Source: a virus. Taken from it: DNA of 46,024 nt. A program made the position numbers and the translations under genes. Of this stretch, positions 448 to 45,704 are shown in pieces (position 1 is the first letter of the stretch; each line of letters starts with the position of its first letter). The stretch is taken from positions 1 to 46,024 of IMG/VR virus record IMGVR_UViG_3300031237_000009. One strand, given 5' to 3'. Under the pieces are notes generated by a model. It had not been told where the DNA came from and did not search any database. It saw nothing but the letters and a program-made list of their open reading frames with translations.

Positions 448-476
448 ACTGTAGCCCTGCATAATAACTATGTCAA
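448..476 (-). promoter_or_regulatory. Recurrent early promoter with dyad operator
   Basis: On the minus strand the -35 is TTGACA (471-476), followed by a 17-bp spacer beginning TAGTTATTATG and a -10 of TACAGT (448-453). The spacer and -35 together hold the dyad CATA-N5-TATG. It is one of about nine near-copies in the window. The stop codon of the upstream gene lies inside the -35. Confidence 0.8.
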
Positions 477-1883: not shown

Positions 1884-3493
1884 ACGACGCTCACATTTCC
1901 ATCTGTGCCGATGACCAGTGATCCGGCCTCGATCATCCTGGCGACGCGACGCTCTGCTGCCTTATAGCCGGATTTGCCCATGGAGCTGAACGGCTTCTTG
2001 TTGCGTAGTCGCTGGACGATGGTTCGAACCGACAACTTGCGCCCGTCTATAGTCAGGATAACCGACTCTTCCTCGGCTTCATTGCCTGACTCGCCAGCAT
2101 CTCGCAGCAACTGCTCCATGTGATCACTGATGATCTCGACGAACTCCATGGCCGCATCCAGTGTCTTATCAGGGATCACGTTTGGAACTGAGGCTCCGTT
2201 ACCCAGGCATTCGAAGACGTGAAGAACTGAAGCCACCTTGAGCGCATGCGTTTCGAACTTGCCAAGCCAGGACAGTAGAACCATGTCACCGCTATCCTTA
2301 AGCTCACCCAAGCGCGGCTCCATATCCTTCCTGGCTTGCTTGATCATCTGGTAGCCGTGCGCACTGGCCCGCAACTGCTCAAGATTCTCAGGGTCCATCA
2401 CCACGCCATCACCAGCCAGGACACGCTTCGAATACTCGCCGACGCAAGCGCGAACCGCAGACTCAAAAGGACGACGCTCTTCCGTTGTCGGAAATCCGCC
2501 TTCGAAATTTCTGGAGCCCAGGTTGCTTGGCTCTGCCATAAAGATGAATCGTTCGGCCATCCCTGAGCCGTTTGATGCCTTCAGGACGCGACGACTGGTG
2601 TTGCTCTGAGCGATCAGCACAACGCTCCCATTAGCCATGCCAGAGAACGCCGAGCGGCCACCACGCATGCCGGCTACATACTCGCCAGCGTACCCCTTCA
2701 GAATCAGCTCGTTTGTACTAGCAAAGCTGTTGCTCTCAGGGAACAGCGAGATCAAAGCCGACTGCTCAGCTGATGCGATGACGAACCGACCCTCTGAGCA
2801 TTCAGCCAGGTGCTTGTCCATCGCCGCCGACGTCGCATCGGTAGCAACCACAAACCCGTACTTCGGCGCATTGACTTCGTCATCCTTTCCAGCGCGCTCA
2901 ATAGCCTCGCGGATCTTCGACTTGACGCGCTTGTTGTGCTCACCCATGGCCATTGAATACGGATTCATACCCATGCCCAGGATGTAACTTTTCTGCGTCG
3001 CTGGTGGCTGCTCAACGATCACATAGAGGCCGGTCGTGATAGGCGAGCCAGTCCGATACTGGACCGCATAGTTCGCCGCGACCGCAGCACTTGCAGAGCC
3101 CAGCAGAGAAAGGAAAGTACTCGCCTCGGGGAACTCAACGCAGTCGGCGATAACCTTGGCAAGTCTGCCGATCACGGTATTCATGAGCGAATCAGGAAGC
3201 TGAATAAATGCCTCAAGCGATTCATCGTCCGGCAACTTTGCTTCAACTTTCTTGCGCTTATAAGGCGTCACCGCTTTCGGCTTTATATCCGGCGCTGCAA
3301 CTTCCTTGTGATGCGGAATCGGCTGAGCAGGAACTACTCCGATATCGAACGCCGTGAATTCGAAGTCCTCTTCGTCGGGCATTACTGCATCAAGATATTT
3401 GTCGATTGGCGGCAACTCAAGCTGCGGGGCTGAGCTGATATCAATGCCGCCGACATCTAATAGCACTGCGATTCTTTCTTCTGGAGAATTCAT
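1880..3493 (-). CDS. DUF3987-like replication protein (537 aa)
   Basis: The first 110 residues are acidic or low-complexity with a basic patch (TPYKRKKVEAK). Then comes the DUF3987-type pattern: LPDSLMNTVIGRLAKVIA, an alanine-rich helix (LGSASAAVAANYAVQYRTG) and GLYVIVEQPPATQKSYIL, where PPATQKS stands where the Walker A loop sits in relatives. Members of this family occur in phage and plasmid replication loci and are thought to act as helicase-like or primase-associated proteins. Its position next to the repeat-rich putative origin (3721-4110) fits a role in initiation. The degenerate P-loop means ATPase activity is not certain. The C-terminal part (RNKKPFSSMGKSGYKAAERR) looks like a winged-helix DNA-binding tail. 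It lies immediately downstream of the 71-aa gene at 3494-3709. Confidence 0.75.
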   Translation of the reverse strand: MNSPEERIAVLLDVGGIDISSAPQLELPPIDKYLDAVMPDEEDFEFTAFDIGVVPAQPIPHHKEVAAPDIKPKAVTPYKRKKVEAKLPDDESLEAFIQLPDSLMNTVIGRLAKVIADCVEFPEASTFLSLLGSASAAVAANYAVQYRTGSPITTGLYVIVEQPPATQKSYILGMGMNPYSMAMGEHNKRVKSKIREAIERAGKDDEVNAPKYGFVVATDATSAAMDKHLAECSEGRFVIASAEQSALISLFPESNSFASTNELILKGYAGEYVAGMRGGRSAFSGMANGSVVLIAQSNTSRRVLKASNGSGMAERFIFMAEPSNLGSRNFEGGFPTTEERRPFESAVRACVGEYSKRVLAGDGVVMDPENLEQLRASAHGYQMIKQARKDMEPRLGELKDSGDMVLLSWLGKFETHALKVASVLHVFECLGNGASVPNVIPDKTLDAAMEFVEIISDHMEQLLRDAGESGNEAEEESVILTIDGRKLSVRTIVQRLRNKKPFSSMGKSGYKAAERRVARMIEAGSLVIGTDGNVSVV

Positions 3494-3825: not shown

Positions 3826-4102
3826 TGAGTCTAATTGAGTCTGGTCTGAGTCTAATCATTAGACTCAACTCCAGGCCACGAAATACGTGGCTTACAGGTG
3901 GTTTGAGTCTAATGAGTCTACTTTTTTTAAAAATCACTTTTTCTGATCATTTTTTAACCAGATGTCAACCTGGGCCGATTTTCCAAAAATGCGCGCATCG
4001 GGAAAATTAGACTCATTAGACTCAAATGGCCTCCAGCCCTTTAAAGCCGTGGCCTAGACCTGAGTCTAATGACCAGACTCACAGCAGACTCAAATAGACT
4101 CA
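3826..4102. repeat. Twelve TGAGTCT iterons in both orientations
   Basis: Direct copies start at 3826, 3836, 3847, 3904, 3913 and 4061. Inverted copies (AGACTCA) start at 3861, 4009, 4018, 4075, 4086 and 4096. Most are extended to TGAGTCTAAT. The pair at 3847-3867 forms a perfect 10-bp palindrome with a one-base centre. Confidence 0.85.
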
Positions 4103-4185: not shown

Positions 4186-4215
4186 TTGACATAGTTTGCT
4201 TGGTGCGAGATGATT
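4186..4215 (+). promoter_or_regulatory. Promoter for the 4298 gene and the non-coding RNA
   Basis: TTGACATAG (from 4186) matches the recurrent promoter's -35 and the first spacer bases, but the rest of the spacer diverges. A weak -10 (GATGAT at 17 bp or ATGATT at 18 bp) follows. A second TTGACA lies at 4175-4180. Confidence 0.45.
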
Positions 4216-4297: not shown

Positions 4298-4900
4298 ATG
4301 AATACTCGTAAACTTATCTACGGCATTGGCATAAAAGATGTCGAGTACAAAACGATTGCCACTAGAGTTTTAGACGACGGAAAGCAGATTAATGTTTGGA
4401 TCTGCCCATTCTATAGAGCATGGAGAGATATGCTCTCCAGGTGCTACTCGGCATCCTATCAATCAAGATACCCTGCATATGTTGGCTGCTCCGTTTCCGA
4501 GAAATGGCTGAAGCTTTCAGCGTTTACCGAATGGATGATCAATCAAGACTGGGAGGGAAAGTGTCTTGATAAGGATATTCTCTTTCCTGGAAACAAAGTC
4601 TATAGCGATGAAACCTGTGTATTCGTCGAGTCAAGGCTGAATTTATTCTTGGTTGATCGCCGCGCCGACAGAGGCGCTTATCCTTTGGGTGTTAGTCGCA
4701 TCAATGGGAATGGAAATTTCAGAGCTTCATGCAGCAACCCGTGGTCGAGAAGGAATGAAAGCCTTGGAGTGTTCACGACTCCAGAAGCGGCTCATGAAGC
4801 ATGGAGAGCATGCAAGCATCGGCACGCACTCGTTTTCGCCGATATGCAAGATGATCCAAGAATCGCTTGCGCATTGAGAAGTAGATTCGCTATGATATAG
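4298..4900 (+). CDS. AP2/HNH-like free-standing homing-type protein (200 aa)
   Basis: The protein starts MNTRKLIYGIGIKDVEY, with GGAG upstream. Residues about 45-70 (YRAWRDMLSRCY) and 95-135 (CLDKDILFPGNKVYS, then CVFV) follow the LDKDI...PGNK.YS...C.FV pattern seen in phage homing endonucleases of the HNH/NUMOD type. The C-terminal third (GVSRINGNGNFRAS, SLGVFTTPEAAHEAWRACK) resembles an AP2 DNA-binding domain. I do not see a full HNH triad. A clear paralogue lies at 37288-37902. It interrupts the space between the putative origin and the packaging genes. Its base composition looks more AT-rich than the structural genes, which fits a mobile insert. Confidence 0.7.
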   Translation: MNTRKLIYGIGIKDVEYKTIATRVLDDGKQINVWICPFYRAWRDMLSRCYSASYQSRYPAYVGCSVSEKWLKLSAFTEWMINQDWEGKCLDKDILFPGNKVYSDETCVFVESRLNLFLVDRRADRGAYPLGVSRINGNGNFRASCSNPWSRRNESLGVFTTPEAAHEAWRACKHRHALVFADMQDDPRIACALRSRFAMI

Positions 4901-10470: not shown

Positions 10471-10499
10471 TTGACATAGTTATTATCTCGGGATAGTCT
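10471..10499 (+). promoter_or_regulatory. Recurrent promoter driving the first inserted cassette
   Basis: TTGACA (10471-10476), a 17-bp spacer TAGTTATTATCTCGGGA and -10 TAGTCT (10494-10499). The leader that follows (GAAACGAACAACGGAGCA) is also found downstream of the minus-strand promoters at 31602-31630 and 45356-45384, so promoter and leader travel as one unit. Confidence 0.85.
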
Positions 10500-10534
10500 T
10501 GCTCCATCGAAACGAACAACGGAGCAAGACGATC

Positions 10535-10702
10535 ATGAAAATTTTCAGCACGAAACAAGAAGCTACTCAGTACATGATTGAAAAATACAGCGCTGACTTT
10601 GTGTCGATGAACTTGGTCAACGTTGTGTATGCAGGCCCAGTAATGGCAAAAATCATGAACGTGTCGGCCGGTTGGTTCGTAGACATCGAAGAGGGGAAAT
10701 AA
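10535..10702 (+). CDS. Small cassette protein (55 aa)
   Basis: The protein starts MKIFSTKQEATQYMIEKYSA. A GGAGC site lies upstream in the shared leader. It has an amphipathic helical N-terminus, then a hydrophobic stretch (LVNVVYAGPVMAKIMNV) and an acidic end. It is the first gene of a promoter-two-gene-terminator unit sitting between head genes. Function unknown; moron-type genes often act on the host rather than in the virion. Confidence 0.6.
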   Translation: MKIFSTKQEATQYMIEKYSADFVSMNLVNVVYAGPVMAKIMNVSAGWFVDIEEGK

Positions 10703-10703
10703 G

Positions 10704-10943
10704 ATGGGGAGGCCTGAGTTTAAAATAACCCTCAAGAGTACAGGAAGTGGCTCAGAGCGCCTCGGAGTTTGCGAGGCCTGCGGAGGAAAATGCGTAGAGG
10801 TTTTCTCGCTGAGAATTCAGAAAGCGTACTATTCACCGTTACTCGGCAGGGACAGTTTTACCTTCGAGGGAGGCCTATCCATGTTCGGGCACGAGCAGTG
10901 CTTAAGAGACCAAAGAATGCATTTCACTCGAGGATCGCACTGA
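10704..10943 (+). CDS. Cysteine-rich small cassette protein (79 aa)
   Basis: The protein starts MGRPEFKITLKSTGSGSE. CEACGGKC gives a C-x2-C-x3-C knuckle near residues 23-30, and a lone FGHEQC near residue 65 could complete a zinc site. It starts one base after the preceding stop and ends just before the terminator, so it belongs to the same cassette. Probable small zinc-binding protein of unknown role. Confidence 0.6.
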   Translation: MGRPEFKITLKSTGSGSERLGVCEACGGKCVEVFSLRIQKAYYSPLLGRDSFTFEGGLSMFGHEQCLRDQRMHFTRGSH

Positions 10944-20636: not shown

Positions 20637-20978
20637 ATGGCATTTCAGATAACCGATATCACCGATGAGCCGAGCCAGCGTCACGTGCTGCTGGTCGATG
20701 ACGAAGAGATCATCATCATCCTGAATTTTTATCAGGTGTCGGAGTTCTGGTCGTTTGATGTGAGCTGGCGTAATGAGCGGTTCAACGGCTTCATGCTGAG
20801 CCTGGGTTGCCTACACATCCAGTCGCTGAACTGGCCGTTTGACTTCTTTGTGTCGACCACGGATTCAAGTGGGTTGGCGCCGTTCAGGCTGGGCGATTTC
20901 AGTGAAGGTCGATGCGAGCTGTATTTCGTGACTGCCGAAGAGATGCAGGAACGCAGAGGATTGGAAGTTCCGACTTGA
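20637..20978 (+). CDS. Baseplate plug-like protein (113 aa)
   Basis: I start at ATG 20637 (MAFQITDITDEPSQRH), one base after the previous stop. IIIILNFYQVSEFWSFDVSWRNERF, FMLSLGCLHIQSLNWPFDFFV and GLAPFRLGDFSEGRCELYFVT match the small beta-barrel that plugs the baseplate in many myophages. Its stop codon (TGA, 20976-20978) lies within the -35 of the next promoter. Confidence 0.7.
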   Translation: MAFQITDITDEPSQRHVLLVDDEEIIIILNFYQVSEFWSFDVSWRNERFNGFMLSLGCLHIQSLNWPFDFFVSTTDSSGLAPFRLGDFSEGRCELYFVTAEEMQERRGLEVPT

Positions 20979-21003
20979 CATAATGATTATCCTGTACGAT
21001 TAT
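20975..21003 (+). promoter_or_regulatory. Recurrent-type promoter driving the second inserted cassette
   Basis: TTGACA (20975-20980), 17-bp spacer TAATGATTATCCTGTAC, -10 GATTAT (20998-21003). The spacer keeps the AT-rich pattern of the family but has only half of the dyad. The -35 contains the stop codon of the plug gene. Confidence 0.7.
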
Positions 21004-21040: not shown

Positions 21041-21367
21041 ATGAGTACCAAGAATAATGGTGGGTCTGCATTCCCTCGCGAAATTGAATATGAGATTTCT
21101 ATTCAGCCTCTCGACTTCAGCAATGTAGGCTCGATGGATGATGTAGCAAAGGCCACAGAGGACGCTATTAAAAACGCTGATCGTGGTCACGGCATGTCCC
21201 TGCGAGATTACTTCGCCGGACATGCGCTCGCTGGCATGTTCGCGAATGACGCGATGATTACCCGTTACGGCGCGCACGCCAAAGACAATCTCATTGATCC
21301 TGACGTGCTGACAGCTACTGCCGCTTACTCCATCGCTGACGCCATGATTTCGGAGCGCTCGAAATGA
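21041..21367 (+). CDS. Conserved phage protein with LRDYFAGHAL motif (108 aa)
   Basis: I start at ATG 21041 (MSTKNNGGSAFPREIEYE). MSLRDYFAGHALAGMFAND and a final ATAAYSIADAMISERSK are hallmarks of a very common small phage protein family of unknown function, usually found among early or accessory genes, not tail genes. Its location inside the tail operon, behind its own promoter, marks it as cargo. Confidence 0.8.
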   Translation: MSTKNNGGSAFPREIEYEISIQPLDFSNVGSMDDVAKATEDAIKNADRGHGMSLRDYFAGHALAGMFANDAMITRYGAHAKDNLIDPDVLTATAAYSIADAMISERSK

Positions 21368-21927
21368 AAAATTCCTACATCCAACAAACCCTCGCCGCCG
21401 AAGAAACCCTGCTGGCCGAGGGCAAGATCTCCAAGTGGTCGCTGTTCCACATCTACTGCGCCGCAGTCATCTTCGGGCTGTCGATCATCTGCTTGCCGAT
21501 CAGCGCGATGCTGCTGCTGTATGCATACCTGAAGATCCGTTCAACCGAGATGGGCATTACCAGCAAGCGCGTCATCCGCAAGTCGGGCGTTATCATGCGC
21601 GATACGGCAGAGATCCGGCTGGCAAAGGTCGAATCGGTATCGGTCAAGCAGGGGTTTCTCGGGCGCATCTTTGGCTATGGCGACGTGATCATCTCGGGTA
21701 GCGGCGGGAATGATGCGGTGATGAAGGGGGTTAAGGATCCGTTGGTTTTTCGCAATGCGGTTGATGACGCTTGCGAACAAAAAAATAACCCGGTTATCTT
21801 CCCGGTATTTTCCGCACAAGGCGAAGGCCTTGATGCTCTGGCGCTGCATCGTGGGCTATGGCAGCGAGACGATGAAACAAAGGATGAGTTCGTTGCTCGA
21901 CTGAAGTCGCAAGGCGGTGCAGCATGA
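21364..21927 (+). CDS. Membrane-anchored bacterial PH-domain protein (187 aa)
   Basis: Two hydrophobic segments (HIYCAAVIFGLSIICLPISAMLLLYAYL, residues about 28-56) precede a bacterial PH domain: TEMGITSKRVIRKSGVIMRDTAEIRLAKVESVSVKQGFLGRIFGYGDVIISGSGG. The C-terminal 50 residues form a soluble tail. It should sit in the inner membrane with the PH domain in the cytoplasm. In a phage tail operon this is cargo; superinfection exclusion or envelope modulation is a reasonable but unproven idea. Overlaps both neighbours by 4 nt. Confidence 0.8.
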   Translation: MKNSYIQQTLAAEETLLAEGKISKWSLFHIYCAAVIFGLSIICLPISAMLLLYAYLKIRSTEMGITSKRVIRKSGVIMRDTAEIRLAKVESVSVKQGFLGRIFGYGDVIISGSGGNDAVMKGVKDPLVFRNAVDDACEQKNNPVIFPVFSAQGEGLDALALHRGLWQRDDETKDEFVARLKSQGGAA

Positions 21928-22427
21928 GCCAGATCGATTGGAGAAAGGCGCCGGAAGGGGCGGAATTTTGGAATCCTAACAGCGAGCTTTTTTACCGATC
22001 GGCTGATGGGGGGTTTCAGAAGTTCTCTGAAACTCGGGGACGCTGGACATTAGCAGCCGGCGAAAGGTATGAATATCAAACCCTGATTGCAAAGCCAACC
22101 GAATGGAGTGGCGAAGGCCTGCCGCCTGTTGGGATTTGCGAGCTGCGTCTAGTCAGCGCTGGCGGAGACTGGCATAAGGCGGATATTAAATTCGCTTCGC
22201 GCAACGTGGTTGTGTGGGACTGGGTTGGCGAGCCATCCATAAATGGTCTTTGCACTGCGTACGCGCATGCAGTTCAGTGCCGCCCAATCCGCACGCCCGA
22301 GCAGATCGCGGCGGAAGATCTGCGCGAGATTATCGAAAGTGGGTTGAATGGCAAGAAAACGTTAGACGAGGTCGTTGATGAGATCATCGCCAATGGCTAC
22401 CGCAAATTCGAAATCGTGGAGAACTGA
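21924..22427 (+). CDS. Phage hypothetical protein of the second cassette (167 aa)
   Basis: The N-terminus, IDWRKAPEGAEFWNPNSELFYRSADGGFQKF, is typical of phage proteins that begin with W..AP.GA......, known only as hypothetical. The C-terminus (RTPEQIAAEDLREIIESGL) is helical. It overlaps the PH-domain gene and is the third gene of this cassette. Function unknown. Confidence 0.6.
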   Translation: MSQIDWRKAPEGAEFWNPNSELFYRSADGGFQKFSETRGRWTLAAGERYEYQTLIAKPTEWSGEGLPPVGICELRLVSAGGDWHKADIKFASRNVVVWDWVGEPSINGLCTAYAHAVQCRPIRTPEQIAAEDLREIIESGLNGKKTLDEVVDEIIANGYRKFEIVEN

Positions 22428-31332: not shown

Positions 31333-31355
31333 GGTGGTTGCTCCTGTCAAGGTGT

Positions 31356-31390
31356 TGGTACTGGCAAAGCCCCAGTGAATGGGCTTGAGT
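31356..31390 (-). repeat. Intercistronic hairpin element, copy 1
   Basis: TGGTACTGGCAAAGCCCCAG (31356-31375) is identical to 44997-45016. On the minus strand it forms AAGCCC...GGGCTT with only TTT after it, so a weak terminator or processing hairpin. Both copies lie between a promoter-proximal gene and a GACAGGAGC ribosome site. Confidence 0.65.
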
Positions 31391-31401
31391 TGTTATGACG
31401 G

Positions 31402-31566
31402 CTAGGCGTGCCACTTATCAATCTTTTGGTATTCAGCCACTACATCTTCATAGCCAAGTGATTCGAGCAAATCACAAAGCACTTCATCTGCATTGATATG
31501 AGCTACTTCGGTATCACGACTTACCTGCTCGACCTTTAAACACTGAATTGCTTCTTCTCTGGTCAT
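31402..31566 (-). CDS. Small acidic phage protein (54 aa)
   Basis: The protein starts MTREEAIQCLKVEQVSRDTE and ends EYQKIDKWHA. GGAGC 9 nt upstream and the recurrent promoter at 31602-31630 make expression likely. Helical, acidic, one of many single-gene units in this genome that have their own promoter. Function unknown. Confidence 0.65.
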   Translation of the reverse strand: MTREEAIQCLKVEQVSRDTEVAHINADEVLCDLLESLGYEDVVAEYQKIDKWHA

Positions 31567-31601
31567 CTCATCTTGCTCCGTTGTTCGCTTCTGTTGAGCT
31601 G

Positions 31602-31630
31602 ACTATAGATCCGCATAATAACTATGTCAA
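31602..31630 (-). promoter_or_regulatory. Recurrent early promoter with dyad operator
   Basis: On the minus strand TTGACA (31625-31630), spacer TAGTTATTATGCGGATC (17), -10 TATAGT (31602-31607). The dyad CATA-N5-TATG is intact. The downstream leader with GAACAACGGAGCA matches the 45356 and 10471 promoters. Confidence 0.85.
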
Positions 31631-31641
31631 CACCAGATAAC

Positions 31642-32329: not shown

Positions 32330-32544
32330 TCTGGGATCTCCGGTAATTCGATATCATTGTCGATCAGCTCTTGCTGATACACCTCGGCTTCTGACATTGA
32401 ATCGCCCCATCCACAACCAGTTACCGATGCGCCAGGGAAAATGCCGTCATGCATCATTGCCTCAGTGAAACTGCTGAGATGATCTTGAAAGGCATCCTTG
32501 TCGCGGATCTGGAAAACCACTGTGAAATATTTTACATCCATCAA
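32326..32544 (-). CDS. Hypothetical phage protein (72 aa)
   Basis: The protein starts MMDVKYFTVVFQIRDKDAFQ and has an acidic C-terminus (LIDNDIELPEIPE). It sits between the exonuclease and the 218-aa gene with 4-nt overlaps on both sides, so it is coupled to recombination genes. Function unknown. Confidence 0.6.
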   Translation of the reverse strand: MMDVKYFTVVFQIRDKDAFQDHLSSFTEAMMHDGIFPGASVTGCGWGDSMSEAEVYQQELIDNDIELPEIPE

Positions 32545-33353
32545 GCACCCCCAAAATCAACATCGCCAAGCAGCTCGTTAGCCGCCCAGATCGTCACGCT
32601 AGTGACTTCCGATTCATCTTCATACGCAGGCCAGATCCCACAGTCCAGGCAGCGCGCATAAGTATTGAGCGCTTCACGATAATGAATACGCCCAAGCTCA
32701 AGAGCGATCTCGTCGAGGTCGTGAAACATTGTGCCGTGCGGTGATTCTTCTTCGATGGCGAACAATGGGAATTCCTTCAGTCGCTCGCCAGTTTCCCAGA
32801 ACCACACGTCGCTGTAGAAGGCGACCTGCATGTAATAGCCGTAGTTGGTGATCGGCTTGGTGAACTCAACTCCACGTGCATCCTGGCATTTCTTAACGTC
32901 CAGAGCGAAGAACGAGTCGCCCATACGGTCGAAGCGGCATTTCACCTGCACGCCTGTTTCTGGATCGGTAGCGGTTACTGACAGCTCATTGCGTCCAGGT
33001 GCTTTCATGTAGGCGGCGAAGCGCTTGTTGCGATACGCGGCGTCCTGCATGCCGATCAGCTTGCGATGATCCGTCATGGTCAACACGCGGTCGGCACCGA
33101 CGTCTTTAACAAGCCCCTTGTAGTAAGCGCTGCGCTTGTCCAGGGCTTCGGTAGCGACGACGTAATGCTTGGCGAATCGCTCAGGCTCAAGGAGCGCCAT
33201 ATGCAGGTGCGTACCCATTGCCATTGCTGGCGTTGGTTCTTTCTCTTCCTTATACTTGAAGTGTGCAGGGCTGCGGCGGATCAGCTTGAGGCCTGAGTTA
33301 CTGGCGGCTTCGATGGCGAAGTATTCTTCGGCTGGCAGGTTTTCGTAGATCAT
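32541..33353 (-). CDS. RecE-like PD-(D/E)XK exonuclease (270 aa)
   Basis: The N-terminus (LPAEEYFAIEAASNSGLKLIRRSPAHFKY) and AMAMGTHLHMALLEPERFA are typical of the exodeoxyribonuclease VIII-type family. Catalytic elements: D142 (RFDRMG), D152 and K154 (LDVKK), with E123 nearby and H51 as an accessory. It would resect double-stranded ends for annealing recombination. The start is behind GACAGGAGC (33360-33368). Coupled downstream to small genes. Confidence 0.85.
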   Translation of the reverse strand: MIYENLPAEEYFAIEAASNSGLKLIRRSPAHFKYKEEKEPTPAMAMGTHLHMALLEPERFAKHYVVATEALDKRSAYYKGLVKDVGADRVLTMTDHRKLIGMQDAAYRNKRFAAYMKAPGRNELSVTATDPETGVQVKCRFDRMGDSFFALDVKKCQDARGVEFTKPITNYGYYMQVAFYSDVWFWETGERLKEFPLFAIEEESPHGTMFHDLDEIALELGRIHYREALNTYARCLDCGIWPAYEDESEVTSVTIWAANELLGDVDFGGA

Positions 33354-33370: not shown

Positions 33371-33388
33371 GGGATAATAACTATATCA
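33371..33388 (-). promoter_or_regulatory. Degenerate copy of the recurrent promoter/operator
   Basis: On the minus strand CTGATATAGTTATTATCC. The conserved spacer is present but the -35 is CTGATA and no good -10 follows; the ribosome site of the exonuclease gene overlaps where the -10 would be. It may function as an operator-only site or a weak promoter. Confidence 0.45.
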
Positions 33389-34613: not shown

Positions 34614-34642
34614 AGATTAGGCTCGCATAATAACTATGTCAA
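34614..34642 (-). promoter_or_regulatory. Recurrent early promoter with dyad operator
   Basis: On the minus strand TTGACA (34637-34642), spacer TAGTTATTATGCGAGCC, -10 TAATCT (34614-34619). The dyad is intact. The stop of the VRR-NUC gene (TGA, 34639-34641) lies inside the -35. Confidence 0.85.
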
Positions 34643-35309: not shown

Positions 35310-37288
35310 AATGCCACCTCCATTTCAGCGTACCGCCGCCGCCCAATCGTCCAGCGACTCCCCTTCTTCCGCGCCGACAACTCAGCCGGAACCGGAATCA
35401 AATCAATATTCTCCATCACGGTTTCCGCCTTCATTGCCCGCAACCGTAACCGAGACCGCTGATCAATCGGCAGCGCATCAACGAACTTGCCCCATATGAT
35501 GTTGTTGACCTTCTTGTTCTCGCCAGCATGCGGATAGAAGATCTCCATCGGCGTGTCACCGGTTGACAGTTCATAGCGGAACCAGAGCTTGCCGCCTGAT
35601 CCGTGGCCAGCCTTCATGGAGCGAACTGGGATCGATTCCGCATCCGAGTAGCTCTTATTGTTCAGCGGCTTGTTCGGATCGATCAGGGTTGTTTTGCATC
35701 CCCTGCATTCCCTTGCAACCTGATCATTTTGGACGTTGCACCGAGGACACAGCCTGAAGTGCCAGAAATGGTCACACCTCTGCGCAGCTCCAGTTAAAGG
35801 ATCCTTCGCTGTCATGCCGATACAACGCCTTGCGTTTGGACTGTTCATAGTGCTAATGCCGTGTTCTTTCATGCACTTAGGGCATTCAATGAGATCTTTC
35901 TTCTCCTTTTTCGCCTTATCCAATTCAGCCTGGTCGAGGATTTGACTCTCGTACAAGTGCCCCAGTGCATCCATTACGCCGCCGTAATCGAGAACAAGTG
36001 CATCAGGCTTGCCGCTGGAAGCTATGAGAGCCTTTCGCTGATCAGCAGACAGTGCGTCACGGTCAAGCATTGGCACATCGCCAGGCGCAATCAGCAGCCG
36101 TAGAACACGGCCAATGGCTTGTATCAGGAGAACGATTGAGGCTATTGGGCGCATGAAAACCACGACATCCCATTCGGCGCAGTTGATTCCCGTTGTCAGC
36201 ACAGATACGTTTATGACGTACTTCAGCTTGCCCGCCTTAGCAGCGTTCAAAATTCTGGTTTGATCTTTCTGCGGCGTGCTTTCAGTGATGATGCCTATTT
36301 GCTCCTGGTCAACTCCGAGCAATTTCAGCGCGGCTGCAATCTGCCTGGTGTGCCGCTTGGTTGCCGCAAAAACCAAAACACCCCTGCGATTCTCAGACTT
36401 ACGCACAAAGTCGGCGCATATCGCAAGGCACAGCTCTTTGTCGCTGACAGCAGCATCAAGCTCATGCTCGGGGTAAGACCACTCTTCTGCGGCCAGTTCC
36501 GAAAAATCATAGTGGACGCTTTCATCGTCTGGATAGCCAAAGACCGGGCCGACAATCCACCCCTGCTCGATGCTGAAGTCTGTAGAAATTATGCCGTCAC
36601 CTACGCCGCCTTCTGGATAATCACTATCTTGCGGCGAAATGCTAGCCACCGATTTCCAGAGGTGATCGGGCGTATTACCCACAATGGAGTTTGTTCCTCG
36701 AAACGGAGAGCCAGTCATGCCGGCCAATCTCATATGGGGCTTCTGGTCGTAAAAATGAGACAGCACTTTCATATACTGAGACTCAGGATTCTCGAAAGGA
36801 ACCTGATGGACTTCATCAATAAGAATCAGATCTGGATGCCACTTCCCGAGCCTTGAGCGTTTTTCGGGATCAAGCGCCAGCTCTTCGGGGGTAAATCCCG
36901 AGAACCGGTATTGATCTAGTGCTCTTGCGATGGTTCCAATGGTGCCGTAAACGACGGAGTAGTGAGTGGACTTTCTGCCGCCGCAAGAGGCGGAAAACAC
37001 GGAATTCTTCATTCCGATGTCCCATGCAGCCGCCGCGTTCTGTTCGCAGAGCAAACCCTGGTTTTGAACTACCAGCACGAATACCGTGGATGGTTTTTCT
37101 CGGTTCGCTGCAGCATCACGAACGGCTTTAGCGCACTCGGCGATCATCACGCTTTTCCCGGAAGACACCGAGGCGGAAACTATCGCAGGCGGGTGAATGT
37201 CACGCTCGCCAAACTTGGCTGTTTGGCGAGTCCTGAAGTGCTTTGTTAGCGCGGCTACTACTGGCTTTTGGTGAGAAAGAAGACCCAT
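35306..37288 (-). CDS. Superfamily 2 helicase with zinc-ribbon C-terminus (660 aa)
   Basis: I start at ATG 37288, with GGAG 8 nt upstream. Motif I is ASVSSGKSVM, motif II DEVH (LILIDEVHQVPF), motif III GMTGSPFRGT, motifs IV-VI include INVSVLTTGINCAEWD and QAIGRVLRL. After about residue 455 come zinc knuckles: CPKCMKEHGI, RCIGM, CDHFW, CPRCN and CRGCK. It likely unwinds recombination or replication intermediates. The start overlaps the stop of the AP2/HNH-like gene (TGATG). Confidence 0.85.
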   Translation of the reverse strand: MGLLSHQKPVVAALTKHFRTRQTAKFGERDIHPPAIVSASVSSGKSVMIAECAKAVRDAAANREKPSTVFVLVVQNQGLLCEQNAAAAWDIGMKNSVFSASCGGRKSTHYSVVYGTIGTIARALDQYRFSGFTPEELALDPEKRSRLGKWHPDLILIDEVHQVPFENPESQYMKVLSHFYDQKPHMRLAGMTGSPFRGTNSIVGNTPDHLWKSVASISPQDSDYPEGGVGDGIISTDFSIEQGWIVGPVFGYPDDESVHYDFSELAAEEWSYPEHELDAAVSDKELCLAICADFVRKSENRRGVLVFAATKRHTRQIAAALKLLGVDQEQIGIITESTPQKDQTRILNAAKAGKLKYVINVSVLTTGINCAEWDVVVFMRPIASIVLLIQAIGRVLRLLIAPGDVPMLDRDALSADQRKALIASSGKPDALVLDYGGVMDALGHLYESQILDQAELDKAKKEKKDLIECPKCMKEHGISTMNSPNARRCIGMTAKDPLTGAAQRCDHFWHFRLCPRCNVQNDQVARECRGCKTTLIDPNKPLNNKSYSDAESIPVRSMKAGHGSGGKLWFRYELSTGDTPMEIFYPHAGENKKVNNIIWGKFVDALPIDQRSRLRLRAMKAETVMENIDLIPVPAELSARKKGSRWTIGRRRYAEMEVAL

Positions 37289-37902
37289 CAATATTTCTCC
37301 TTTATTTCGGAATATCTGGCACGCAAAGATTCTGCAATTCTTTGATCGATCTGCATATCTGCGTATCGCAGTGCATGCTGGTGCTTGCGCGATCTCCAGG
37401 CATCATGCGCAGCATGTGGACAAGAAAACCCACCAAGACGCTCTCTTTTGCCAGTGAATGGATTGCTGCACTCGGATCTAAATCTTCCTGACTCTGCATG
37501 TAGGTGTACGCCTATCGGCCATTCGCCTTGAGATGCTCCATGATCATTCAGGAAGCTATTTAGGCTCTGACTTATGAACACGCATCTGTCGGACGCATAA
37601 ACTTTATTTCCTGGAATTATTATGTCTTTATCTAGGGCTAGACCCTCCCAGTTCTGGCTAAGCATCCATTTCGAGAAGTTAGAAAATCTCAGCCATTCAG
37701 GATCTACCGAACATCCTATGTAGGTAGGCTTGCCGGCTTGATATGACAATGAATAGCAGCGAGATAGCATACTGCGCCATACCTGATATATAGGGCACGT
37801 AGACCACCGACGAGATCCATCTGCTAAAATTGCTTGAGTTCTTATTTGATAATCTGAGTCACTTATACCGACCCCGCAAACTAAGCGATTTCTCTTGCGC
37901 AT
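37288..37902 (-). CDS. AP2/HNH-like free-standing protein, paralogue of 4298-4900 (204 aa)
   Basis: I start at 37902 (MRKRNRLVCGVGISDSDY), which aligns with the paralogue. Shared blocks: YQVWRSMLSRCYSLSYQ, YIGCSVDPEWLRFSNFSKWM, LDKDIIIPGNKVYA, CVFISQSLNSFL and the AP2-like LGGFSCPHAAHDAWRSRK. Base composition looks more AT-rich than neighbours. It sits just downstream of a large hairpin/terminator and overlaps the helicase start, as a mobile insertion would. Confidence 0.7.
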   Translation of the reverse strand: MRKRNRLVCGVGISDSDYQIRTQAILADGSRRWSTCPIYQVWRSMLSRCYSLSYQAGKPTYIGCSVDPEWLRFSNFSKWMLSQNWEGLALDKDIIIPGNKVYASDRCVFISQSLNSFLNDHGASQGEWPIGVHLHAESGRFRSECSNPFTGKRERLGGFSCPHAAHDAWRSRKHQHALRYADMQIDQRIAESLRARYSEIKEKY

Positions 37903-37914
37903 AAATCCAACCCA

Positions 37915-38027
37915 CAAAAAAGCCCTTTGACTGTTCGCTGGTGAGACTCCTGGCAGGACTTGGATCGACGGCGGTCAATCCTGCAAGGAACAGCGAACAT
38001 CAAAAGGCTCTGGTTAGCCGTCGATCC
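37915..38027 (-). ncRNA. Pseudoknot-capable structured element with terminator tail
   Basis: 37921-37940 and 37991-38009 are inverted repeats of about 19 bp with one mismatch and one bulge, followed on the minus strand by T5 (37920-37916). Within the loop lies GCAGGA/TCCTGC (37953-37958, 37979-37984). CCGTCGATCC (38018-38027) is the exact complement of loop bases GGATCGACGG (37962-37971), allowing a pseudoknot or an alternative fold. It separates the methyltransferase-like gene from the AP2/HNH-like gene. It may be a terminator/antiterminator switch or a stable small RNA. The remaining bases to 38093 contain no ORF. Confidence 0.6.
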
Positions 38028-38093: not shown

Positions 38094-38714
38094 CTATCCC
38101 CACTGATCAGCCATGGCGCGCGCAATAGCAAGATAGGTCCTGCTGCGCTCCTTCTCTCGCTCTTCGCCAGGGGAGGCCTTGTGGCATGCGTCCTCAATCT
38201 TTTCGTAGTCTGTCTTCTTGTGGGTAGACACCAGCTTTGGGAGGCCTTTGAGCCATAGGCATGCGCCCTTAGTGAAGGCGTCGCCAAACATCCATGGCTG
38301 AACCTTCTGGGTGTATTTACCAATAACCGACATGGCCAACCCGTGCGGCTGGGAATTCTCCAGGCAGATCAGGGGGATATTGGCGGCTGCCAACTTCTTG
38401 AAGAATGCAGCGCCTTCAAGGAAATTATCCATGCGATCAGGATATTGCGGATGGCGGCGGCGCTCAGCGCTCGGCAAGTCAGTATCAGCGGGGTGATACA
38501 TCCACCGGATGCCAGCCAACGTGTTGAAGGTGCACGGCGGATGACCGATAAGCATATCCCAGCCCTGATCGAGTACCGCCAGAACATCACCCTTGATATG
38601 CCATTGCGGATCACCCTCGCACTCGCGAACATCGCAAGACCAGGCGTCATGACCTTTGGCGCGGAAAGCATCGCGGACGCGAGCCGAATATTCACAAGCC
38701 ACGAGAATACGCAT
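38094..38714 (-). CDS. Cytosine methyltransferase-like phage protein (206 aa)
   Basis: RILVACEYSARVRDAFRAKGHDAWSCDV is the SAM-binding first motif as seen in phage Dcm-like proteins. GHPPCTFNTLAG (P59-P60-C61) stands where the catalytic PCQ loop is expected and LENSQPHG replaces the ENV/ENP motif. IGKYTQKVQPWMFGDAFTKGACLWLKGLP is a known block of this phage family. Methyltransferase activity is not assured given the altered motif. Overlaps the ParB-like gene by 1 nt. Confidence 0.75.
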   Translation of the reverse strand: MRILVACEYSARVRDAFRAKGHDAWSCDVRECEGDPQWHIKGDVLAVLDQGWDMLIGHPPCTFNTLAGIRWMYHPADTDLPSAERRRHPQYPDRMDNFLEGAAFFKKLAAANIPLICLENSQPHGLAMSVIGKYTQKVQPWMFGDAFTKGACLWLKGLPKLVSTHKKTDYEKIEDACHKASPGEEREKERSRTYLAIARAMADQWG

Positions 38715-39628
38715 TATTCCTCGCCTCCGATCAAATCCATCTGCTTATCAGCATCCAATGCCTTGCCAGATTCGCGCATATCGTTGACGGCCATGATCAA
38801 ATCCGCGAGAGCGTAGGAACTGACCATCACGTATTCGACATCAGGGTTTTCGAACGACTCAAGCGTTTTTGCATCGAGCCCATTGACCAGCACAACCGCA
38901 TTCGAAACAACCATATCCACCTTAGGCCGACTCGGAGCGGCAGCCTTCTTCGGCGCAGAAACCTTGGCCGTTACCTTGTTCTTTCCGAGATCTTTGGCTG
39001 CTTCTTTGCGGCGCTCCAGCTCGGCTGGCGCATCAACACCATGATCGCGGATCAACTTGGTGGCTTCGGTTGCGCTGATCTCTTTGCGCTCGACAGCTTC
39101 ATGAATCTCTGGCGATCCACCGGAAGCAAACAGGATCATCTGATCAACATGCGCAAGCGACATGCCCGCCTCGGCGGCGATCTCTTGGCGGCTCAGGCCG
39201 TCGATATCGCGGGCATCAATGTACAGACGCCCAAGCTCGACAGGCTTCAACTTGAGCTGCTTATTACTGGATGCGATGCGCATACGGCGCTGACCAGGCG
39301 TGCCATCGAACTTCACGGCTGAGATGTAGCCGTCAAAGTCGTCAGTCATCTCGGCGTATTGCTGATAGGCATGAAAGCGGCAGTGGCCATCAACCAGCTC
39401 AATATCACCGGTTTCTGGATTTACCCATACTTCAATCGGTGGAATCGGCAGATTGGCGGTCAGTGCGCCAGCGATGCTCGCAACGTGTTCGCGCAACTCA
39501 TCATCGTCGATGCGGACATTGAAGCCGTCGATCACCTTGATGGCTTGTATGTTTACGCGAATTGCGTCGCCACGGCGGGCGTCGAGGTTGTTCTTGTCGG
39601 ATGCGATGTTGTTCAAGGTATACGCCAT
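38714..39628 (-). CDS. ParB-like DNA-binding protein (304 aa)
   Basis: IKVIDGFNVRIDDDELREHVASIAGAL, then IPPIEVWVNPETGDIELVDGHCRFHAYQQ is the ParB/Srx N-terminal fold. IDGLSRQEIAAEAGMSLAHVDQMILFASG is a helix-turn-helix. The C-terminal part is lysine-rich with KKAAAPSRPKV. No ParA is visible, so partitioning is unlikely; phage versions are often transcription or nuclease factors. Start behind GACAGGAGC (39637-39645). Confidence 0.8.
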   Translation of the reverse strand: MAYTLNNIASDKNNLDARRGDAIRVNIQAIKVIDGFNVRIDDDELREHVASIAGALTANLPIPPIEVWVNPETGDIELVDGHCRFHAYQQYAEMTDDFDGYISAVKFDGTPGQRRMRIASSNKQLKLKPVELGRLYIDARDIDGLSRQEIAAEAGMSLAHVDQMILFASGGSPEIHEAVERKEISATEATKLIRDHGVDAPAELERRKEAAKDLGKNKVTAKVSAPKKAAAPSRPKVDMVVSNAVVLVNGLDAKTLESFENPDVEYVMVSSYALADLIMAVNDMRESGKALDADKQMDLIGGEE

Positions 39629-39655: not shown

Positions 39656-40237
39656 TTATTCGGCGGAAGGAAGGCCAACAAGGGCGTTTAGGTCGGCAAC
39701 TTGGATTGCGGGAAGCTGCGGCTTTGACTCTTCCACGTATGCTGGCAGCAACTCTTTAGCTTCTGGCCAAGCCTTAAGCAGAGCCTTCACAGTGCTGACA
39801 GCATGGGTGGCCGCATTGACGCTAGCCTTCACCTTTTCCCACTGATCGGTATTCGCTTTTTCTTCAGCGCAGATGTCGTGGAATTGCTGAGCGAGAGGAT
39901 TGTTGGCAGTGATAGTGAAGCGGCTTGGAGCGACCTTGTAGCCTTCCCATCCGCACACATGTAGAGACAGCCCTGCGCAGTTTACCGAGATAGATCCGCG
40001 ACGCTGAATTGGACTGTCATCCCCACGAAAATCGATAGGAACCAACTGGCGAATCGCCTCTACCTCCTTGTCGAGAGATTCAAGCAATTCAGCATGCACG
40101 CCAAGCGATTCGATGCGAACAGCTTCATCCCAGGCTTTGCGCTTATTTTGAGTGTCTTCGCGGCGCTTACGGTTGCCGGATTTGGTCTGAGCATTTGCAA
40201 GGATCTGTTCGCGGATGCTTTTGGTTAGTCGAGTCAT
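39656..40237 (-). CDS. Nmad5-like protein, DNA-modification-associated (193 aa)
   Basis: The N-terminus (MTRLTKSIREQILANAQTKSG) is basic and helical. The later halves include a beta part (RGSISVNCAGLSLHVCGWEGYKV), then a helical KASVNAATHAVSTVKALLKAWPEAKELLPAY and LPAIQVADLNALVGL, which is the Nmad5 layout as I remember it. The protein is upstream of the ParB-like gene and behind a promoter-like site. Assignment is moderate; function in relatives is only predicted. Confidence 0.55.
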   Translation of the reverse strand: MTRLTKSIREQILANAQTKSGNRKRREDTQNKRKAWDEAVRIESLGVHAELLESLDKEVEAIRQLVPIDFRGDDSPIQRRGSISVNCAGLSLHVCGWEGYKVAPSRFTITANNPLAQQFHDICAEEKANTDQWEKVKASVNAATHAVSTVKALLKAWPEAKELLPAYVEESKPQLPAIQVADLNALVGLPSAE

Positions 40238-40251
40238 TTTGTTGCTCCTGT

Positions 40252-40280
40252 CATTTGAAGTCGGATAATAACTATATCAA
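40252..40280 (-). promoter_or_regulatory. Weak copy of the recurrent promoter/operator
   Basis: On the minus strand TTGATA (40275-40280), spacer TAGTTATTATCCGACTT, then CAAATG where a -10 should be. The dyad is incomplete (TATA-N5-TATC). It precedes the 39656-40237 gene with GACAGGAGC just after. Confidence 0.5.
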
Positions 40281-40293
40281 CAAACTATGGCAA

Positions 40294-40780: not shown

Positions 40781-40810
40781 TTGCCATAATTGTCTCTCCG
40801 GTGGTACTAT
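40781..40810 (+). promoter_or_regulatory. Candidate rightward promoter of the HTH gene
   Basis: TTGCCA (40781-40786), 18-bp spacer, TACTAT (40805-40810). Its -10 overlaps the -10 of the leftward promoter on the other strand, and the CATA-N5-TATG dyad lies just downstream. Confidence 0.4.
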
Positions 40811-40835
40811 CCGCGAAACATAATCACTATGTCAA
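40806..40835 (-). promoter_or_regulatory. Recurrent promoter, leftward, with dyad operator
   Basis: On the minus strand TTGACA (40830-40835), spacer TAGTGATTATGTTTCGCG (18), -10 GATAGT (40806-40811). The dyad CATA-GTGAT-TATG is intact. It faces the HTH gene on the opposite strand, so one regulator site could serve both directions. Confidence 0.75.
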
Positions 40836-40850
40836 CACGGAATTTTAAAT

Positions 40851-41288
40851 ATGCCACCAATCGACCTGCAACAAGACGACCGAGGCCGCGCACTGGCTAG
40901 CGTCATCGCTGAGTACGGCGGCAATGCTGCCCTGGCTCGCGCTACAGGCTTTCGACGCGACGCCGTGGGTATGTGGGTTCAGCGTGGCTATATGTCTCGT
41001 CGTGCCGCTTATACGCTGGCAGAGGTCACTGGTCGCGAGAAAGAAGAATTCAGGCCGGATCTGACCGCCGAAGAGTGGGCGAAGGATTTCGCGGGACCGG
41101 TTCCTGGAGAGAAGCCGGAGCCAATCACTCAAGACGCCAAACTGCTGGTTCAACTCGCCAAGCAATACGGCAGCGTCAAGGCTCTTTGCGCAGCAGCATT
41201 CATCACTGTCGGCGACTATCACACGTACAAGACTCGTGGTCGCATTCCGGCGATCAAGCTGCCGACCTTTTTGAGTCTGCAGAAGTGA
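40851..41288 (+). CDS. Tandem helix-turn-helix regulator, YdaS-like (145 aa)
   Basis: The first HTH (residues about 19-62: EYGGNAALARATGFRRDAVG, then RGYMSRRAAYTLAEVTG) follows a Cro/YdaS-like layout. A second HTH-like segment (AKQYGSVKALCAAAFITVGDYHTY) comes at about 105-130. It lacks a visible protease or dimerisation domain. The gene is divergent from the leftward early operon and next to an operator copy, so a Cro-like regulator of the recurrent promoters is plausible. No strong ribosome site is visible. Confidence 0.7.
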   Translation: MPPIDLQQDDRGRALASVIAEYGGNAALARATGFRRDAVGMWVQRGYMSRRAAYTLAEVTGREKEEFRPDLTAEEWAKDFAGPVPGEKPEPITQDAKLLVQLAKQYGSVKALCAAAFITVGDYHTYKTRGRIPAIKLPTFLSLQK

Positions 41289-42148
41289 GCGGCGAACTAG
41301 TTCCACAACACATTGTCGACCGCGCCAACGAGGATATCGTCGGCGTGATTCGCGGGTATCTGCCAGACCTGAAGAAGGCCGGGAAGAACTGGTCGGCGCG
41401 CTGCCCATTTCATCAGGAGAGATCGGCCAGCTTTACCGTCAGCGAAGGCAAGGAGATGTATTATTGTTTCGGTTGCGGCGCTGGTGGCGATGCCGTCGGG
41501 TTCGTTCGCGAGATGAATCCAGGCATGAGCTTTCGCGATGCCGTCCAGTCCATCCTTGGCGAGTTGACGCTTGAATCGTCAGCAGTCCGCAGGGTTCCAG
41601 TAGTTCGCGCCACACGCTGCGACTTGCCAGGTCACGCTGAAGACCGAGAAAAATCAGCAAGAGTTCTTTCCATTTGCCATCCAGTAGAACAGCACAAATA
41701 TTTCATGCAGAATAATACCGCCCCAAACGACACATGCCTTGTAAACGCCAGGGGAATCCTGATGGTTCCGCTGATCAACAACATCGGCGAGACAACCAAC
41801 ACCGCCGCGATTCTTTCCACTGGTGCAATCAATTACGCAGCCGGTAACCCATCGTTCGGCTCGACTGCCATCCTGGAGCCACAAGGCGAGCACGACGGCA
41901 AAACAATTATCTGCATCGACTACGCCCACGCCTGGCGGCTGTGGTGGTCGCAATCAGGCCGTAGTCGCGTCCTGTGCGCTATGGAGTTCGACAACTTCAA
42001 CTGGATGCTGGCGAACTGCAAAGACCGGTTCACGCATATTGGTTGCGATCCATCAGAAGCCGATCAGTTCGCTGATGACGGTTACGCAATCGTCGCGCTG
42101 CCACTAGACCCGTACGCAAAAGTTGACAGGCGCAAGTGCTGCGCATAG
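41285..42148 (+). CDS. CHC2 zinc-finger primase (287 aa)
   Basis: I start at GTG 41285 (overlap GTGA with the HTH stop). VDRANEDIVGVIRGYLPDLKKAGKNWSARC starts the DnaG-type zinc domain: C40, H43, C61 and C64. GVPL-like ILMVPLINNIGE and a weak Toprim-type TIICIDYAHAWRLWW follow. The RNA-polymerase core is shorter than in DnaG, so a small phage primase is likely. It would work with the DUF3987-type protein at 1880-3493. Confidence 0.75.
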   Translation: MSGELVPQHIVDRANEDIVGVIRGYLPDLKKAGKNWSARCPFHQERSASFTVSEGKEMYYCFGCGAGGDAVGFVREMNPGMSFRDAVQSILGELTLESSAVRRVPVVRATRCDLPGHAEDREKSARVLSICHPVEQHKYFMQNNTAPNDTCLVNARGILMVPLINNIGETTNTAAILSTGAINYAAGNPSFGSTAILEPQGEHDGKTIICIDYAHAWRLWWSQSGRSRVLCAMEFDNFNWMLANCKDRFTHIGCDPSEADQFADDGYAIVALPLDPYAKVDRRKCCA

Positions 42149-44402: not shown

Positions 44403-44665
44403 GAGAAAGACCGCTCACGCTTGGCGCGCAACTTCCAGCCATCGACAAAGCTCTGCTTATCGCCTTCACCATTCCAGGCCATGACCGCATTCAGGCTTTC
44501 GAGATCTTCGTTGTAGCTGCCGACATAGCCCTTGGTCTTGCGGTAATAACAGGCTTGCTTGATGCCTTCGCCAAGGCATGCCTCGATGACAATCCAGCGC
44601 ATGCCTTTTGCCCGCATTGATTCAGCTTGATCGATAACCTCATCAGTAAACTTGCGCGGCATCAT
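44399..44665 (-). CDS. HTH-like small phage protein (88 aa)
   Basis: MMPRKFTDEVIDQAESMRAK, then RWIVIEACLGEGIKQACYYRK give an HTH-like N-terminal domain; the remainder (LNAVMAWNGEGDKQSFVDGW) is helical. Its N-terminus is repeated at window bases 1-96. Coupled to the membrane peptide upstream. Confidence 0.65.
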   Translation of the reverse strand: MMPRKFTDEVIDQAESMRAKGMRWIVIEACLGEGIKQACYYRKTKGYVGSYNEDLESLNAVMAWNGEGDKQSFVDGWKLRAKRERSFS

Positions 44666-44742
44666 TGGTTAATCCCCGCCAAGATAACGATTACGACGAT
44701 TGCGACCAGGCTGATGATCAGATCCCATTTGTTGGCGCGCAT
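44662..44742 (-). CDS. 26-residue single-pass membrane peptide (right allele)
   Basis: Identical to the left copy except for two substitutions in the helix (both to valine). Starts MRANKWDL and overlaps the next start. Conserved hydrophobicity in both alleles supports translation. Confidence 0.65.
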   Translation of the reverse strand: MRANKWDLIISLVAIVVIVILAGINQ

Positions 44743-44978
44743 GGAAATGTCCTTCCCGCTTCGGCAGGCGTGTAGGTCACATTGAAGGATAGATAGCTGC
44801 CGTCTTCGAAATGGAACACCTTTATCATCGGCGACGGCATGCCTTTGTAGGCCGCATACATAACTGAGAATTCATAGGCGTCACGGGATTCAAGGGCTTG
44901 CTGGGCTATGGTGGTCGGCTGACTGGTGGTCGGCTGAACCATCAATCGTCTGCCGTCGCTGAATTTGTCGTTGTTCAT
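44718..44978 (-). CDS. Conserved phage protein of unknown function (86 aa, right allele)
   Basis: Start at 44978 (MNNDKFSDGRRLMVQ) behind GACAGGAGC (44986-44994). One residue differs from the left allele. Here a separate gene and hairpin lie between it and the promoter. Function unknown. Confidence 0.75.
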   Translation of the reverse strand: MNNDKFSDGRRLMVQPTTSQPTTIAQQALESRDAYEFSVMYAAYKGMPSPMIKVFHFEDGSYLSFNVTYTPAEAGRTFPCAPTNGI

Positions 44979-44996
44979 TTTTATTGCTCCTGTCGG

Positions 44997-45044: not shown

Positions 45045-45320
45045 TTAGGCGTATATGCCGCCGAAGACGTGGATAACCAAAGCTCCATCATCCATTTGGA
45101 AAGTTCCGAGAAATGGCGCAGCTGAAACCTGCGGCGGGATTTCGTTACCTGTTCCGCATATCCCGAAAACCTGCCGACGCATCGGGCGAGAGTCGTCAAC
45201 CTTGAACCACATCTGCGGTTTACCGTGCTGCATTTGCAGGGACAAGAAGGTAGCGCCTTCCGGCAAGCTGATGGTGAAAGTGTCGCCAAGGAATACCGCG
45301 TGTTTGTGAATGGTGATCAT
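45045..45320 (-). CDS. Conserved phage protein, compact beta fold (90 aa)
   Basis: ITIHKHAVFLGDTFTISLPEGATFLSLQMQ, QMWFKVDDS, FGICGTGNEI and FLGTFQMDDGALVIHVFG follow a family often seen in phages (i.lP.ga..L.vq.Q...p.lW..vd...p...r.f...gTG..i......ylGT....dg.lV.HVFe). Promoter 45356-45384 and GGAGCAGGACGAG leader lie upstream. Absent from the left allele. Function unknown. Confidence 0.75.
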   Translation of the reverse strand: MITIHKHAVFLGDTFTISLPEGATFLSLQMQHGKPQMWFKVDDSRPMRRQVFGICGTGNEIPPQVSAAPFLGTFQMDDGALVIHVFGGIYA

Positions 45321-45355
45321 CTCGTCCTGCTCCGTTGTTCGTTTCTGTTGTGCTG

Positions 45356-45384
45356 ACTATAGAACCGCATAATAACTATGTCAA
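45356..45384 (-). promoter_or_regulatory. Recurrent early promoter with dyad operator
   Basis: On the minus strand TTGACA (45379-45384), spacer TAGTTATTATGCGGTTC (17), -10 TATAGT (45356-45361). Best match to consensus. The stop TGA of the upstream gene is inside the -35. Leader CAGAAACGAACAACGGAGCA follows. Confidence 0.9.
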
Positions 45385-45704
45385 CAACCTTCAGCCCAAT
45401 GTAGCCGAACGGTAGCGGAAATTTCATCCTTGTCGCCGACGACCTCGCCGCCTGGCCAGGAGCATTGGAATTCATCGGCGTTAAGGCGTTTCAGGATGAA
45501 TAGGCCGAGAGTCCATAGTCCTTTGCGCTGCTGCTCCCATGGCAGTCTATCCGGAGGCGGCGCGATGATCCGCACCATCGACTCAAGGCGACCACAGAAG
45601 ATCGCCTGAGTGATGCGCAGCTCTTCCTCTTCGGTGTCTTGGGGTTGCGGGACGATGTGGCGGCATTGTTTGCCGTCGGTGAAGAAGAGGTCGTAGATTT
45701 TCAT
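45381..45704 (-). CDS. Conserved phage hypothetical protein (107 aa)
   Basis: MKIYDLFFTDGKQCRHIVPQ, FCGRLESMVRIIAPPPDRLPWEQQRKGLWTLGLFILKRL, then DEFQCSWPGGEV. The left allele is frameshifted after GRLES. Beta-rich with one helix. Function unknown. Confidence 0.7.
   Translation of the reverse strand: MKIYDLFFTDGKQCRHIVPQPQDTEEEELRITQAIFCGRLESMVRIIAPPPDRLPWEQQRKGLWTLGLFILKRLNADEFQCSWPGGEVVGDKDEISATVRLHWAEGC

Follow-up and report, generated by a model that had tools for sequence, protein, structure and literature searches.

A 13-bp oriented operator, probably read by a candidate tandem-HTH regulator, heads variable gene slots across a phage family

The window, a 46,024-nt stretch of viral DNA analysed at its full length, carries nine copies of a 13-bp near-palindrome, CATArTnAtTATG/C, as read directly from its coordinates. 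This repeat is probably the operator of the phage's own 40851 regulator, which would shut off the early gene slots as well as itself. We infer binding, repression rather than activation, and early timing from sequence comparisons across the phage family. The tandem-HTH build of the candidate regulator, a second class of sites, the variability of the slots and the probable identity of two copies as one locus go beyond an earlier sequence-only reading of this DNA.

That reading had described nine near-identical promoters with a weaker one at 4186, a description that holds for seven. At these class I sites (n = 7) the 13-mer fills the spacer between the -35 and -10 elements of a sigma70-type promoter, built as TTGACA-17/18-(-10) with a spacer starting TArTkATTATS, and the core TTGACATArTkATTATS lies at 448, 10471, 20975, 31602, 34614, 40806 and 45356. 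The dyad CATA-N5-TATG, earlier noted in five copies, is exact at 448, 31602, 34614, 40806 and 45356, the 13-mer ending in TATC instead at two of the seven, and the coordinates bear out the placement of sites on both strands and in both late-region inserts. The copies at 33371 and 40252 belong to a different class (class II, 33371/33373 and 40252/40264), which has the form TGATATAGTTATTATC and no -10 element at 17 bp; here the -10 lies inside the motif, as part of an extended -10 of the form TGnTATAGT, and TGA precedes TATAGTTATTATC at both 33373 and 40264. With 448 and 45356 counted as probably one locus, the window holds about eight distinct full sites and one half-site, that at 4186 (Table 1).

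Table 1. Operator-bearing promoters and associated genes in the window
Feature	Position	Strand	Details
Class I operator-promoter	448..476	-	TTGACA-TAGTTATTATGCAGGGC (17)-TACAGT; operator 460-472; probably same locus as 45356
Half-operator promoter, probable late	4186..4214	+	TTGACATAGTTT...GATGAT
Class I operator-promoter, late-region insert 10532-10943	10471..10499	+	Operator 10475-10487 (CATAGTTATTATC)
Class I operator-promoter, late-region insert 21041-22427, slot 4	20975..21003	+	Operator 20979-20991 (CATAATGATTATC)
Class I operator-promoter, slot 1	31602..31630	-	Operator 31614-31626
Class II operator over extended -10 (TGATATAGT)	33373..33385	-	19 nt before exonuclease-like gene 32541-33353
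Class I operator-promoter, slot 2	34614..34642	-	Operator 34626-34638
Class II operator over -10 (TGATATAGT, or TATTAT with TTGCCA at 40293)	40264..40276	-	26 nt before Nmad5 gene 39656-40237
Predicted regulator promoter PR, TTGCCA-18-TACTAT	40781..40810	+	-10 overlaps PL -10; operator at about +1 to +13
Class I operator-promoter PL, TTGACA-18-GATAGT	40806..40835	-	Divergent to regulator gene; operator 40819-40831 (CATAGTGATTATG)
Candidate 145-aa regulator with two predicted Cro/YdaS-like HTH domains	40851..41288	+	Profile match, AF2 model, internal repeat
CHC2-type primase-like gene, exact start approximate	41237..42148	+	PF01807 8e-27; downstream of regulator; found in all 16 operator genomes
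Class I operator-promoter, probable second allele of 448 locus, extra cassette 45045-45320	45356..45384	-	Operator 45368-45380

A scan of the genome with a symmetrised matrix, as had been proposed, gave seven window sites scoring at least 12 against 0.02 expected per 46 kb of Markov sequence, a figure that is partly circular in that the matrix was trained partly on window sites. The better, independent test is a spacer-blind count in ten genomes, for which an exact TTGACA had to be followed at 16-18 nt by a -10 matching in at least four of six positions: 42 of the 55 pairs carry the motif. A generic sigma70 scan of 30.2-46 kb gave about as many promoters as chance predicts (12 against 11.1), so what stands out is the shared spacer and not promoter likeness.

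Among 81 distinct class I sites of the network shared with the relatives, selected on the -35 and operator positions but not on the -10, operator positions 1-4, 6 and 8-12 are near-invariant: each carries 1.6-2.0 bits, and no -10 base exceeds 1.4. Apart from 5 and 7, spacer positions 1-12 thus surpass the -10 in conservation; position 7 takes T or G, position 13 has G more often than C, and the stretch from the operator to the -10 is poorly conserved. Position 5 is G in 63 of the 81, yet its mirror, position 9, hardly ever has a C; the site is therefore asymmetric, with an orientation that follows the promoter. This asymmetry recurs in the 13 class II sites, for which the TGATATA form was the selection criterion (sites in the isolate Pseudomonas phage Amjad_SA, OP917824, and in contig G026 were selected otherwise), and there position 5 coincides with the fifth -10 base, at which sigma70 alone would prefer A. 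The -10 inside the class II operator is mostly TGATATAGT; it is TGATATAAT at the G012 site orthologous to 33373, and the Amjad_SA orthologue of the 40264 site reads TGGTATAAT. One core therefore serves two geometries, in the spacer (class I) and over the -10 (class II), and its conservation above the -10 together with its occurrence beyond the spacer geometry argues for the earlier suggestion that the spacer carries a regulator site.

Two further elements accompany the operators. In many slots the stretch from the predicted start point to the gene contains a recurrent leader element, GAAACrAAcaacGGAGC (for example 10505-10530 and 31575-31600), which may be a translation aid or a further site. 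Paired operators 13-16 bp apart occur within one promoter at L075:15759-15784 (G011) and L084:14149-14174 (G021), and also in Amjad_SA (L096:2436-2464 and 3309-3337), which suggests cooperative or graded control in more distant relatives.

The operator network is common to related IMG/VR contigs and to Amjad_SA, and the comparison of these relatives speaks for the phage-wide regulon that had been postulated. Searched independently for 40851 homologues and for the exact 17-mer TTGACATAGTTATTATG, IMG/VR returned largely the same contigs, those with the 17-mer and without the regulator being short fragments, or low-GC or very large contigs with chance-like matches. Further regulator homologues emerged from a wider IMG/VR search. 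Operator-bearing contigs of sufficient length to judge encode a 40851 homologue, and 16 of 16 operator-bearing genomes tested have one. From a degenerate motif scan of IMG/VR only contigs with at least two hits were used: among the matches listed, these multi-site contigs belong to the regulator-bearing family or are its fragments, and many single-hit contigs, again among the matches listed, are of other kinds, as chance predicts. Contig G026 (L128), picked solely for its two degenerate operators, encodes the regulator. In Amjad_SA the regulator homologue (MAJJADAN_00068) is 33% identical, and operators lie at its promoter and elsewhere; the paper describing this phage makes no mention of a promoter, operator or repressor (PMC12968170). 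A 32%-identical homologue in KLEP17-4 lacks both the first-HTH Trp and the conserved Lys in HTH two, in a genome without operators, and AH02, which shares one cargo gene (81%), has neither operators nor a regulator match. Helicase, ParB-like, primase, regulator and other early or replication-type genes are present in all 16 operator genomes, whereas the window's virion module is found in only eight of the 16, and therefore the network travels with the early module.

These patterns favour the 40851 protein as the candidate binder, as had been proposed, given homologues in the operator contigs and a site at its own promoter in nearly all of them. The protein looks like two Cro/YdaS-like HTH domains in one chain. 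Pfam returns YdaS_toxin at 4.2e-6, below the curated cut-off, and P22_Cro at 0.09; a profile search of the PDB gives weak Cro matches, and the N and C halves align with each other at an hhalign probability of 91. The AF2 model predicts four-helix HTH units at residues 10-60 and 94-143 joined by a flexible linker, with a pLDDT of 74 and a pTM of 0.45 that make the relative placement of the heads tentative, a point against our assignment. The closest single-domain structure in Foldseek is Xfaso 1 Cro (TMt 0.80-0.83, E 0.09-0.2), and the search with the model gave nothing at E of 0.001 or below. The recognition region of the first head varies among relatives, and the second head is more conserved, with His124, Lys127 and Arg129 kept in all operator-bearing genomes aligned. 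A literature search for tandem-HTH Cro proteins found nothing relevant.

Nearly every regulator start has a site in the 60 bp or so upstream of it, just past PR. Most regulator homologues are preceded by a predicted TTGCMA-17/18-TAYYAT promoter whose -10 overlaps the -10 of the divergent PL. A single bound regulator could block both PL and PR. Counting against our assignment, G009, G010 and G023 have degenerate operators at the regulator promoter. Another phage DNA-binding protein, most likely the ParB-like product of 38714-39628, might instead bind the repeats as parS-like sites in partition, replication or regulation. The ParB-like protein is as universal as the regulator (16/16), as is a small zinc-ribbon protein (40294), which weighs against our assignment, and class II sites often precede the ParB-like gene. 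However, the sites are locked in promoters in one orientation rather than arranged in parS-style clusters, and Amjad_SA has no operator directly before its ParB-like gene, whereas an operator stands at the promoter of the 40851 homologue there and in nearly all relatives; we judge this explanation unlikely, although it is the best placed of the alternatives.

The copies at 448 and 45356 had been counted separately. Both sequences are present, but the imperfect overlap of the contig ends (1-1120 and 44570-46024) makes them probably two alleles of a single locus. The ends match between 1-425 and 44570-44994 (97%), 448-799 and 45356-45706 (83%), and 1000-1120 and 45904-46024 (99%). These matches most likely mean that the window is a circularly permuted genome, with one version of the locus from a mixed population at each end, or else a two-strain assembly. 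The end alleles differ by the cassette 45045-45320, which begins at the operator-promoter, and by a replaced gene, the unrelated 779-1003 and 45701-45907. Over 73 nt, promoter and leader of the extra cassette (45314-45386) match slot 1 (31560-31632) at 92% identity, and the end of the cassette resembles sequence at 31338-31392. Such a copy, and alleles that differ by a cassette at the operator-promoter, would also be expected if no regulator were involved and one strong promoter had been copied by recombination and kept as homology for cassette exchange. This account is less likely again, since the 13-mer is constant while flanks and -10s vary between slots, Amjad_SA included, and is kept in class II, where the -35 and spacer context is gone.

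A lower ranking still goes to a host Fur-family repressor (Fur or Zur) reading the sites and tying early expression to metal status. The motif does resemble the Fur box core GATAATnATTATC, a point against our assignment: the 7-1-7 Fur-box core is TGATAATnATTATCA, to which CATAATnATTATG is near, and some copies are one base away from it (20979, CATAATGATTATC). Yet the outer bases are mostly C..G, the reverse of the Fur G..C, position 5 is usually G, the third hexamer of the Pseudomonas Fur box is missing, the sites lack the GATAAT-type repeats over 19 bp of a Fur box, and all multi-site contigs among the matches listed fall in the regulator-bearing family or its fragments.

With the 40851 protein as the reader, host sigma70 RNA polymerase would on infection read the strong operator-promoters, about seven in number, together with the two promoters in which the operator covers an extended -10. 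These would drive early genes, many of them accessory genes that vary between relatives while their slots stay in place. Made from PR beside the PL operator, the regulator would accumulate and occupy the 13-bp sites, between the -35 and -10 in class I and over the -10 in class II, shutting all slots and its own gene; the 4186 promoter, with its half-site only, would largely escape. The candidate target DNA of the 40851 protein and MAJJADAN_00068 is CATAGTTATTATG. Lambda Cro shuts PL and PR, and 17-bp spacers require no MerR-like activation. The placement of the sites in the spacer or over the -10, the 17-bp spacers, the Cro-like fold, the autoregulatory site and the lack of an integrase or resolvase together favour a lytic-cycle shut-off of the early slots. 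Neither Phage_integrase nor Resolvase was found in the 16 genomes, which is in keeping with a lytic shut-off role and also compatible with extrachromosomal prophages, and no prophage relatives appeared in a regulator scan of 84,980 genomes, a peptide-pattern scan that distant ones can escape. That the 40851 protein binds the spacer and activates, for example by distorting it, is the least probable alternative: a site placed between the -35 and -10 would fit MerR-like action, but the spacers are an optimal 17 bp with good hexamers, in class II the -10 itself is covered, and the predicted fold is Cro-like, not MerR-like.

The genes behind the operators are the variable part of this architecture. 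When sites were clustered into slots on their upstream 400 nt, the promoters proved to lie at fixed places while the genes downstream differ among relatives, with sharing of 0.96 upstream against 0.12 downstream in slot 4 and 0.86 against 0.07 in slot 2. Overall, upstream-minus-downstream sharing is 0.287, compared with a null of random positions in the same genomes (standard deviation 0.030, maximum 0.097 in 2000 draws). Slot 1 alone holds 13 first-gene families in 15 genomes, and the 91 first genes behind operators, called by a simple rule of start codon and Shine-Dalgarno sequence, fall into 55 families from about 19 genomes or fragments. Few of them are named by Pfam or PHROGs: Nmad5, exonuclease VIII, ParB-like, a bacterial PH/membrane-flanked domain and DUFs. 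More tentatively, and with rather less confidence than we attach to the operator itself, we propose that a natural single-chain tandem Cro reads the asymmetric 13-bp operator and controls portable operator-headed slots, whose positions stay fixed and whose genes are swapped through recombination at the operator-promoter. This would make the operator both switch and cassette joint, marking new early genes, perhaps for host takeover or anti-defence, across a family with differing virion modules.

By site layout and domain build, the closest functional parallel is the two-domain L5-type repressor with its 13-bp stoperators (PMC9283540). In cluster A mycobacteriophages (L5/TipsytheTRex) one chain with two DNA-binding domains reads many oriented 13-bp operators and stoperators, which lie genome-wide in fixed orientation to transcription, in promoters and short intergenic gaps (PMC9283540). 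The window likewise has nine sites, orientation having been partly used in calling them, and one chain with two predicted DNA-binding domains. Here, however, the domains resemble Cro repeats, the sites occupy sigma70 spacers or cover the -10, the 16 genomes gave no integrase match and the sole isolated relative has a pseudomonad as host. Monomer binding and elongation block are features of the mycobacteriophage system.

Lambda and P22 Cro, and YdaS, the Cro equivalent of CP-933P (PMC8630535), share with the 40851 protein a Cro-type HTH, by weak profile and Foldseek scores and in each modelled head, and a gene divergent from an early-type promoter with the operator between them, at 40819-40831 here, which would imply autorepression. 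Unlike these single domains of about 60-100 aa, the 40851 protein has 145 aa and two HTH heads per chain, a genome-wide target set, and one short operator per promoter rather than clustered OR/OL. In archaeal viruses a shared regulatory motif marks anti-defence genes (PMC11065993); as there and in Aca-controlled acr operons, variable and probably early accessory genes stand behind a common regulatory sequence, which can serve to find them, but the present case concerns a bacterial phage family, a sigma70/operator module, an identified candidate regulator and cargo for which anti-defence is only a possible role. Most early accessory genes of lytic phages are orphans that are difficult to spot. 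A single short operator that marks them would be a handle for finding unknown early phage genes, and a regulator resembling a natural two-headed Cro offers a testable parallel to the two-domain mycobacteriophage repressor.

The promoter at 4186, which had been listed as a weaker copy, is ruled out as a full one: only TTGACATAG is retained, the left half of the operator. The half-site promoter, TTGACATAGTTT with GATGAT, is kept in five relatives (G002, G005, G006, G007 and G022), and from its place before head and tail genes it is probably a late promoter. Two related proteins of about 200 aa are encoded on opposite arms, at 4298-4900 and 37288-37917; they share RDMLSRCYS.SYQ...Y.GCSV and have homologues in 10 of the 16 relatives. 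Upstream of the 4186 promoter, 3826-4102 holds a cluster of TGAGTCTAAT and ATTAGACTCA repeats together with inverted repeats (55-nt arms, 85%); the cluster occurs among the relatives in G003 and G022 only and is possibly an origin or a set of sites for a second regulator.
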